40,052 nt of DNA. Origin: Bacteroidaceae bacterium. Its GTDB lineage: Bacteria > Bacteroidota > Bacteroidia > Bacteroidales > Bacteroidaceae. The translations under genes were made by a program, and so were the position numbers. Shown in pieces: positions 35,337 through 37,448 of this stretch. The notes below the pieces were generated by a model that did not search any database, had not been told where the DNA came from, and was given only the letters and a program-made list of their open reading frames with translations. Location of the stretch: NCBI GenBank assembly GCA_017466325.1, contig JAFTUK010000053.1:1-40052 (forward strand). The letters are read 5' to 3'. Each line of letters begins with the position of its first letter. The first letter of the stretch is position 1.

Positions 35337-37448
35337 ATGAACGAAAGAGAAAGCATCATAAGCCTGAGGGAACAACTGCACCGGCATAACTATAATTATT
35401 ATGTATTGAATGCCCCCACCATCTCCGACAAGGAATTCGACGAGATGATGCACCGCTTGCAGGCCTTGGAGGAGAAGTATCCGGATATGTCCGACCCCAA
35501 TTCCCCCACCCAGCGCGTGGGCAGCGACCTGAACGACGAGTTCCGCACCGTGCCTCACCGCCGCCCGATGCTTTCCCTGGCAAATACCTACAATCTGGAG
35601 GAGGTGCGCGAGTTCTACCAGCGCGTCTCCGACGGCCTTCACGGCCAGCCCTTCCAGGTGTGTGCCGAACTGAAGTACGACGGCCTTTCCATCTCCCTGC
35701 ATTACAGGGACGGCAAACTTGTGCAGGCCCTGACCCGTGGCGACGGCGTGCAGGGCGACGACGTTACGGCCAACGTGCGCACCATCCGTTCCATCCCCCT
35801 CGTGCTTGATTCTTCCAGGGAAGACATCCCCGAGGAGTTTGAGATACGTGGCGAGGTGCTTATGCCCTGGCAGAGTTTCGAGCGATTGAATGACGAGCGG
35901 AGTCAGGCCGGCGAAGACCTCTTTGCCAATCCCCGCAATGCGGCATCGGGCACGCTGAAGAGCAAGGACCCCAAGGTGGTGAGCCAACGCGGCCTTGATG
36001 CCTATCTGTACTATCTCCTTGGAGAAGACATACCATCCACGGGGCATTATGAGAATATGGAATCGGCACGCTCGTGGGGCTTTCAGGTGAGCAAGGACAT
36101 GAGGCTTTGCAACACCTTGGAGGAACTTTGGGAGTACATCAGTTACTGGGACGTGCACCGCAAGGAACTTCCCGTGGCCACGGACGGTATTGTCATCAAG
36201 GTGAACTCCCTTGCCCAGCAGAAGGCGTTGGGCATGACGGCCAAGTCGCCCCGTTGGGCCATTGCCTACAAGTTCCAAGCGGAACAGGCATGCACCATCC
36301 TGCGCGAAGTCACGTTCCAGGTGGGGCGCACGGGTGTGGTAACTCCCGTTGCCAACATGGATTCCGTCCTCCTCTCCGGTACCATGGTGCACCGTGCCAC
36401 CCTGCACAATGCCGACGTGCTGGAAGCCCTCGACCTCCACATCGGCGACCACGTGCTGGTGGAAAAGGGAGGAGAGATAATACCAAAGATAGTGGGAAAG
36501 GAGGGAACGGAAAACGGAAAACGGAAAACGGAAAACTCCGAGAAGTCGGAATACTCCGAGAAGTCGGAATACTCCGAGAAGTCGGAATACTCAGAGTACT
36601 CCGAGTACTCAGAGACCTCCGATGACAAGCACCCACCTTTCCGTTTTCCGTTTTCCGTTTTCCGTTCTCCCATCCACTTCATCCAGCGGTGTCCCGTGTG
36701 CGGCACCCCGTTGGTGCGTGGCGAGGAAGAGGCATCGCACTATTGCCCCAACGACCTGCATTGCGCACCGCAGATAATAGGGCGCCTGGAGCATTTTGTT
36801 TCTCGCAAGGCAATGAACATCAGTCAGGTAGGTCCCGAACTGATACAGCAATACTATCGCAACGGCATGCTCCACGACGTGTCCGATTTCTATCGCATCA
36901 CCCACGACAAGAAGGTGGCGGACAGCGTGGCACGCAGCACCGAAGTGCCCTTTGAAAGGGTGCTCTTTGCCCTGGGCATAAGGTTCGTGGGCGAGATAGC
37001 GGCCAAGACTCTGGCACGCAAGTTCAAGGACATAGATTCGCTGATGTCTGCTACCATGGAGCAACTCCTGGAGACGGACGGCATAGGCAATGTCATAGCC
37101 GAAAGCATCATCAACTACTTCGCATCCGAAGAAAACCGTGCCCTCATAGAGAGGCTCAGGCAGGCAGGCCTGCAATTCACGCTTTCCGAAGAGCAACTCT
37201 CCACGCATAGCACCACATTGCAAGGGCAGAGCATAGTGATAAGCGGCGTCTTCGCCCACCACTCGCGCGACGAATACAAGCGCATCATCGAGCAGCACGG
37301 CGGAAAGAACGTGGGCAGCATATCGGGCAAGACCAGTTTCATCCTGGCCGGCGAGAACATGGGACCCTCGAAACTCGAGAAGGCGGAGAAGTTGGGCGTG
37401 AGGATTGTTTCCGAAGACGAATTCCTTGCCATGATAGGGCAGGAATAA
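35337..37448 (+). CDS. ligA: NAD-dependent DNA ligase with in-frame repeat insertion
   Basis: Essential replication and repair ligase that seals nicks using NAD+. At 703 aa it is about 35-40 residues longer than usual. Domains in order: Ia and adenylation (1-315) with the AMP lysine Lys113 in [11 protein letters not shown] fold (about 318-387) ending [10 protein letters not shown]; a repeat-encoded insert (about 389-446); a four-cysteine zinc finger ([17 protein letters not shown]); helix-hairpin-helix repeats; and a BRCT domain (about 625-703, [19 protein letters not shown]). The insert replaces the normal short linker between OB fold and zinc finger with a Ser-Glu-Lys/Tyr repeat flanked by TENGKRK and FRFPFSVFR. 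The frame is intact, so the enzyme is probably functional. Start chosen at the ATG after the -7 box. Confidence 0.96.
36503..36669 (+). repeat. Composite heptamer/nonamer inverted-repeat element inside ligA
   Basis: Left arm: four CGGAAAA units at 36508-36535. Right arm: CTTTCCG then three TTTTCCG units at 36637-36664, complementary to the left arm at 27 of 28 positions. Between them lie nine 9-bp units at 36535-36615: ACTCCGAGA/AGTCGGAAT three times, then ACTCAGAGT, ACTCCGAGT and ACTCAGAGA, followed by a short unique stretch. Flanks GGGAACGG and CCGTTCTCC extend the inverted symmetry imperfectly. The whole is in frame with ligA. Confidence 0.9.

Follow-up and report, generated by a model that had tools for sequence, protein, structure and literature searches.

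The element described here most closely resembles the intervening sequences (IVSs) of bacterial 23S rRNA. In Coxiella, the 23S IVS holds an S23 open reading frame (ORF), a 28-bp terminal stem, and, ahead of the ORF, tandem heptamers whose number varies between strains (PMC4990558). It was termed a selfish element there, the function and origin of IVSs were called unclear, and an earlier idea was cited by which the IVS ORF once encoded a component for mobility (Ralph and McClelland 1993). We analyzed 40,052 nucleotides from a Bacteroidaceae bacterium (GenBank assembly GCA_017466325.1, contig JAFTUK010000053.1, positions 1 to 40,052; hereafter the window), in which a heptamer-armed hairpin is inserted in frame in ligA, the gene for the NAD-dependent DNA ligase. 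The insert is probably a non-autonomous member of a mobile family of heptamer-armed hairpins, the complete copies of which bear an S23 gene. The heptamer element shares with the Coxiella IVS an S23-family ORF, inverted ends that form a 28-bp stem, and tandem heptamers; nothing in the available part of the Coxiella article presents heptamer arms as common to S23 genes at large (PMC4990558). However, known IVSs lie inside 23S rRNA, from which RNase III excises them, whereas the present elements lie between or inside protein genes (here ligA instead of a 23S rRNA helix) and mostly lack an ORF.

Rickettsia palindromic elements are selfish palindromic DNA found in frame in many protein genes; we know of no heptamer arms in them and of no link to S23. 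Porphyromonas gingivalis belongs to the Bacteroidales, as does the present bacterium. Its BrickBuilt miniature inverted-repeat transposable element also joins tandem repeats to small inverted ends, but its units are 23 bp long, it is always intergenic, and its abstract names no S23 gene (PMC4596501). Repetitive extragenic palindromic (REP) doublets forming hairpins, or REPINs, are likewise built of a spacer with a short repeat at either side, one inverted relative to the other; they occur in many copies per genome and are linked to a few transposase genes (PMC3116915). The candidate master gene of the heptamer element is S23/IVP, however; REPIN ends are REP palindromes, whereas the arms here are tandem heptamers, and a search of nine genomes yielded no Y1 transposase. 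Heptamer arrays, an over-represented repeat class in many bacterial genomes, number 186 in Xanthomonas and 183 in Nostoc and form 70 and 75 inverted pairs there; in general they show no association with mobile elements, and slippage was suggested for the excess (PMC4692102). There the heptamers are treated as G-quadruplex-forming simple repeats, and the term S23 is absent from the text available. No evident transfer mechanism was reported for the TAACTGA heptamers of Beggiatoaceae, cyanobacteria, and Bacteroidetes, in a text containing neither "S23" nor "intervening" (PMC4679880). For the CGGAAAA-type heptamer itself, we found one C. elegans paper, and none for its reverse complement. No paper linking heptamer dispersal to S23 was found in open-licence PMC, which is weak evidence of novelty.

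We refer to the window's own assembly (2.59 Mb, 88% complete) as G000 and to its sister species as G061. Protein domains were assigned with Pfam, and tandem arrays in the window were found independently with Tandem Repeats Finder (TRF). The features of the ligA locus are listed below.

35337-37448, plus strand: ligA, NAD-dependent DNA ligase, 703 aa, with in-frame insert (ORF, Pfam, comparison with G061).
36504-36664, no strand: inserted element of 161 bp, with an unrelated 158 bp in G061 (the sister alignment stops at 36503 and resumes at 36665).
36508-36535, plus strand: left arm, (CGGAAAA)x4 (sequence, TRF).
36536-36537, plus strand: CT just inside the left arm, as in most copies (array survey of G000 and G061).
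About 36535-36615, plus strand: variable core of nine 9-bp units of the ACTCCGAGA/AGTCGGAAT type (TRF periods 9 and 18).
36637-36664, minus strand: right arm of inverted heptamers, 27/28 complementary to the left arm.

The 28-bp arms form a long stem, pairing at 27 of 28 positions, and the hairpin folds better than shuffled sequences (z of -10.5 as RNA and -9.1 as DNA; 0/200 shuffles as good in either). Sequence, TRF, and folding bear out the four heptamers and the inverted arm given in a preliminary description of the window. Its placement of the insert in the linker between the OB fold (residues 320-389) and the zinc finger (451-476) also agrees with the 703-aa ORF and the Pfam assignments; six Pfam families score above the cut-off in LigA, every one a LigA domain. 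With the insert left aside, G000 and G061 differ over 650 codons by 33 synonymous nucleotides and 5 non-synonymous codons, and this part of LigA is under purifying selection. The Rfam matches listed for the element (miRNA and snoRNA) were far under gathering scores.

The doubled heptamer CGGAAAACGGAAAA has 99 matches in G000 (38 + 61) and its backwards-read control has 0, an abundance that is no chance effect. Among the close relatives compared, it occurs 126 times in G061, 27 in G062, 10 in G063, 30 in G064, and 0 in G065, and it is absent from 36 further congeners (0/36). Some congeners carry TTCAAAA arrays instead, part of them as inverted pairs. Array counts given here for G000 refer to 59 stretches fetched around its doubled-heptamer sites. 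Reading inwards, arms often run CGGAAAG/T, GTGAAAA, and then CGGAAAA, an order common to copies. At the inner border (CT...AG), CT follows 46 of 73 arrays in these G000 stretches and 29 of 45 in fetched G061 stretches, against a background dinucleotide frequency of 0.059-0.060. Two-sided copies, counted with one pattern, number 17 in the fetched G000 stretches and 10 in those of G061, with cores of 15-132 bp that vary in length and sequence. L023 and L027 share one 41-bp core with changes, which L048 has in inverted orientation, and 9-mers of the ligA-core kind have 8 genome matches at up to one mismatch (reversed control 0). The preliminary description had seen a defined mobile repeat and recommended a search for further inverted heptamer pairs, of which there are many. 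Its mobile repeat stands insofar as the copies are dispersed, have defined arms, and differ in number and content between sisters. Its fixed unit of heptamer arms plus nonamer core does not, because the 17 two-sided G000 copies differ in core length and sequence. What is constant is a dispersed, inverted, heptamer-armed structure restricted to a clade.

The evidence leads to a gene family that the preliminary description did not name, S23/IVP. In G061, the element in slot L243 (3532) encodes a 112-aa protein that matches PF05635 (23S_rRNA_IVP; E 4.7e-24) and the solved homologue 2rld (1.7e-36), and the gene sits between CGGAAAACT and AGTTTTCCG arms. Arms of the CGGAAAA/GTGAAAA family surround S23 genes in G061 (C20), G063 (C107), and G064 (C169), that is, in three of the four relatives with the heptamer repeat; the slot of the G064 gene holds a CCC-armed element in G061. 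The S23 gene of G005 (C50) has TTCAAAA arms. A PF05635 profile search of 11 genomes of the genus and 14 well-known control genomes gave matches in 10/11 of the former, 37 of them over the cut-off, and 0 in the 14 controls. To score arms, we took the inverted similarity between the 250-bp flanks of a gene and set the threshold at the 95th percentile of 269 control ORFs. In the genus, 32/36 S23 loci exceed it (1 of the 37 had no usable right flank), with a median score of 49 vs 17 for control ORFs (Mann-Whitney p 1.8e-17). Most S23 arms are short tandem repeats, the unit of which differs from gene to gene. The ligA copy lacks an S23 ORF, and gene-less copies share the arms of resident S23 genes in G061, G063, G064, and G005; they match no resident S23 arms in the assemblies of G000, G062, G014, G049, G020, and G008.

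Beyond the genus, S23 genes likewise lie between inverted arms, mostly of period 7. Across all scored loci (genus, plasmids of five phyla, and one viral contig), 58/63 are above the threshold. The plasmid set comprised 26 records from tblastn, with the best place of each scored (L338 is apparently a broken gene), from Cyanobacteriota, Bacteroidota, Spirochaetota, Bacillota, and Chloroflexota; 25/26 loci were above the threshold (17/18 and 8/8), a count in which n overstates independence because several loci are near-copies. The single S23 relative on a viral contig was also above it (1/1), and exact (CGGAAAA)3CT had 0 matches in viral contigs. Among controls, 4/89 plasmid ORFs exceeded the threshold, none with a period-7 left arm, as did 12/267 recounted G061 ORFs, three with such an arm. 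Among the first 54 S23 loci (36 genus, 18 plasmid), 49 are armed, and 73 of their 98 arms have a lag identity of at least 0.7; the best period of these regular arms is 7 in 68, 8 in 3, and 9 in 2. Arm similarity follows protein identity (Mantel rho 0.22, p 0.0005), also among pairs below 70% identity (0.19, p 0.001) and below 50% (0.15, p 0.0045). Of 15 pairs above 80% protein identity, 87% reached an arm score of 30 or more, as did 28% of 39 pairs at 60-80%. Related S23 proteins thus tend to share arm sequence. A Treponema S23 protein 65% identical to that of G061 has GGTGAAA/GCGGAAA arms, close to arm variants of the CGGAAAA family.

Some plasmid S23 genes lie beside or among defence genes (L325, L326, L329, L323, L341, L342). 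These settings include positions between cas2 and cas1, beside cas1, between HsdS and HsdR, and after the DISARM gene drmD.

We profiled turnover between the sister species in alignments selected for their repeat sites (about 126 kb in sum), classing unaligned gaps of at least 15 bp. Of 62 gaps, 11 hold heptamers in both species and 7 hold heptamers in one species and a CCC-armed element in the other (3 one way, 4 the other). Other heptamer combinations account for 4, CCC elements occupy both sides in 3 by the strict pattern and in more by eye, and the remaining gaps are without heptamers. The swapped slots are ligA, L034, L067, L238 (12597), L243 (3532), L246 (5621), and L247 (7317). The CCC-rich arms (GACCCTCCCCC...AAGGGAGGGGAGT) are unrelated in sequence to the heptamer arms. 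No empty partner was seen for heptamer gaps in this survey (0/22); four gaps had an almost empty partner, none with heptamers, and one of these (L033) lies inside an array common to both species. Slots L067 and L247 hold heptamers in G062 (L216, L217; flanks 90-94% identical), which suggests that heptamer to CCC is the likely direction there. Slot L243 (3532) holds a CCC element in G000 and a heptamer element in G061, measures just 11 bp in G064, and is filled differently in G062. The oddest fact in our data is that entire cassettes are exchanged at fixed borders while the sister genomes show no empty intermediates, which simple transposition does not explain. Examples of the CCC-armed inverted repeat are L222 (ligA), L246:5621-5840, and L247:7317-7528, with replacement running in both directions.

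The ligA slot itself shows this turnover. The linker was taken by one pattern, which worked in 50/111 sequences (window plus L068-L177). The window and its own copy L068 have 63 residues, L098 has 62, and the remaining 47 linkers have 17-20. L098 is G061, the nearest relative, where the 158-bp element is in frame, unrelated in sequence to the G000 insert, and also an inverted repeat (ACCCTCCCCCAACCCC...GGGGAGGGGTC; RNA fold z -5.9). Two close relatives, G062 and G063, lack a ligA insert, and none is seen in L100, L113, and L099/L069 when both strands are read. Short TTCAAAA-type heptamer runs lie at the site in G020, G012, and G024 (L070, L073, L074), and in G012 the reading frame is lost after the run. 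The comparison with relatives that had been proposed for LigA therefore reveals no ancient linker of fixed content. Directly after ligA (window about 37478-37490), G061 has an additional repeat-like stretch of about 58 bp (TGACAATACGTTG...) that is missing in G000.

ORF calls place 11 of the 73 arrays within ORFs and 20 close to an ORF end, with the other 42 outside, and several of the array-bearing ORFs appear antisense or doubtful. Convincing coding insertions are those in LigA, UvrA, a PspC-domain protein, two YDLSGRQV-tailed proteins, and an AcrB-family pump. In UvrA (L018, G000:C11), the element lies between the two ABC halves; G061 (L183) has a different insert there with the halves in different frames, either an assembly error or a broken gene. 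The insert-bearing proteins of L024 and L025 end in YDLSGRQV, and Pfam finds no sorting domain in them; we take them for cargo of the type IX secretion system. The pump ORF (L049, G000:C34:26800-29800) crosses a heptamer/9-mer element without a frame break and continues as an outer-membrane efflux protein, and the same long ORF in G061 (L180) shows that it is present in both sister genomes. In L011, L061, and L037 there are short C-terminal tails. The CGGAAAA heptamer is stop-free in all six frames. A special coding design of the heptamer was considered and rejected, as half of all heptamers likewise read without a stop on either strand; this property permits coding insertions and does not explain them.

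From these comparisons we infer that S23 is the cause of element mobility. Each end of an element is an array of 7-bp units, inverted relative to that at the other end; in the present family the unit is CGGAAAA, with the variants CGGAAAG/T and GTGAAAA. The middle would be dispensable, a small S23 gene (PF05635) in complete copies and other repeat DNA in most. The S23 protein would recognize its own heptamer array as a hairpin, in DNA or RNA, and drive the copying or insertion of anything between such arms. To our knowledge S23 has no catalytic site, so it probably acts with host replication or repair; our guess is single-strand annealing or strand or template switching at hairpins, which could also explain whole-cassette replacement at fixed borders. 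An in-frame copy in the flexible ligA linker would be tolerated since the heptamers are stop-free in six frames. More broadly, and tentatively, S23/IVP four-helix-bundle proteins may be dedicated mobility factors of a large unrecognized class of elements with inverted heptanucleotide ends, each protein reading its own heptamer. The 23S IVSs would then be one branch, and the heptanucleotide excess of bacteria (Nostoc, Xanthomonas, Bacteroidota, others) would largely be their non-autonomous offspring, able to insert in frame in essential genes such as ligA and to be replaced whole by a second hairpin family. This possibility would tie heptanucleotide repeats, S23/IVP proteins, and the origin of 23S IVSs into one hypothesis, in which each S23 recognizes the heptamer of its own ends. 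If true, it would show mobile hairpins diversifying the linkers of essential proteins (LigA, UvrA, the PspC protein, secretion-tail proteins) and swapping wholesale between sister species.

Several observations weigh against a role of S23 in mobility. Solved structures of S23/IVP proteins exist, among them that of Xanthomonas Xcc0516 (cited in PMC4990558), and we know of no agreed function, nor of any catalytic site, nuclease, or recombinase activity. The G000 assembly (88% complete) yielded no S23 gene inside CGGAAAA arms; the four S23 genes that it has over the cut-off are flanked by other arms (C41, C46 with an internal stop, C31) or by none (C19). Neither S23 match of G062 over the cut-off lies in such arms, and this genome has 27 doubled heptamers. 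Among TTCAAAA-bearing congeners, only G005 has a scored S23 gene inside TTCAAAA arms; G014, G049, G020, and G008 have none. Arms are below the threshold at 4/36 genus and 1/26 plasmid loci, and the near-copies among the plasmid loci inflate n. L270 and L340 are armed without tandem heptamers, L343 has period 8, and a Bernardetia S23 protein 61% identical to that of G061 has unrelated GATTAGT arms. Shared descent alone can produce a protein-arm correlation. No target-site duplication was found for heptamer elements, with a single near-empty site available for comparison (G064, flanks 92-95% identical, no obvious duplication by eye). Doubled heptamers also occur, at 1-2 each, in 4/24 genomes of the same order outside the genus, and the assemblies used are drafts, mostly metagenome-assembled. 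The two arms of a copy resemble each other no more closely than arms from different copies do (p 0.42 and 0.77), and an origin of the palindrome by copying of one arm into the other was rejected accordingly.

Some of these points suit the view that S23 genes are passengers on hairpins spread by another enzyme or by host processes, as do the many heptamer-armed copies (most of them) that have no S23 gene and the unrelated CCC-armed type in the same kinds of slot, where no gene was seen and none was looked for. The missing catalytic function, and the lack of a gene in matching arms in the G000 assembly and in most searched TTCAAAA-bearing congeners, belong here as well. Yet 58/63 of the S23 genes scored, from five phyla, have arms around them, made of many unrelated units, and among proteins that share less than 50% identity relatedness still tends to be mirrored in arm sequence. 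Genes so tied to their ends are unlike passengers, and we consider this explanation unlikely. We regard it as very improbable that a role for the host (as terminator, mRNA stabilizer, or RNase III processing site) maintains the hairpins, such that the hairpin and not its sequence matters and turnover is functional replacement. This would agree with the seven sites that hold either of two unrelated hairpin types across the sister species, with the absence of empty partners for heptamer gaps in the sister survey, and with the 42/73 arrays outside called ORFs, but the element also lies inside coding sequence in ligA and the PspC gene, G062 and G063 do without the ligA insert, and one slot is nearly empty in G064.

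Simple-sequence expansion, with heptamers made by polymerase slippage and a chance inverted pair tolerated in the linker, would account for sister loci such as L057, which differs from G061 by a single heptamer, and has been suggested for heptameric repeat excess (PMC4692102). It leaves unexplained the dozens of dispersed copies of one unit, the recurrent order of arm variants, the inverted pairing, the inner CT, and the swap for an unrelated inverted-repeat element at the same borders. Random slippage, which the preliminary description had also set aside, we hold to be highly unlikely. That description had pointed to REP-associated or IS200/IS605-type transposases. A REPIN moved by a REP-associated tyrosine transposase (RAYT), with the arms as REP sequences and a Y1 (HUH) enzyme acting on them, would suit the REPIN-like layout, a spacer enclosed by short repeats in inverted orientation (PMC3116915), and palindromes of GTAG type are also common in these genomes. 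However, PF01797 has 0 matches in G000 and eight relatives (incomplete assemblies) vs 5/14 control genomes, and the arms are direct tandem heptamers and not palindromes, which leaves this explanation barely credible.

In G061, stretches L178-L197 contain the palindrome GGACACGGCATGCCGTGTCCCTAC, which we take to be of the GTAG-foot type, and its commonest 16-mer occurs 28 times in 399 kb.

Two further features of the window belong to the heptamer family or adjoin it.

19194-19227, plus strand: second window copy, a one-sided heptamer array in a PspC-domain gene (18926-20641) (TRF, Pfam).
18780-18869, plus strand: structured repeat core of about 90 bp (CTGCGAGTAAGCGAGAGCA...) joined to heptamer-like units (compared with the G061 slot).

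The array at 19194-19227 is in frame, in the linker ahead of the PspC domain (residues 135-192); it is the same in G061 and degenerate in G062. The structured core of 71-94 bp (CTGCGAGTAAGCGAGAGCA...TGCCGAGC..AGCAG) recurs in L013, L017, L031, L066, and others besides the window, and its hairpins look compensatory by eye. RNAalifold on 12/15 structured cores gave 13 pairs, one of them changed on both sides, from an alignment that splits the variable hairpins. With Rfam, 15 fetched loci gave a tRNA and a tmRNA as the only hits to reach gathering scores, and the structured core was unmatched. In the congeners G005 and G008 (L204, L206, L214), TTTTGAA arrays lie just upstream of promoter-like sequences with TAnnTTTG, presumably the Bacteroidetes promoter motif, and some TTTTGAA arrays may supply promoter elements.

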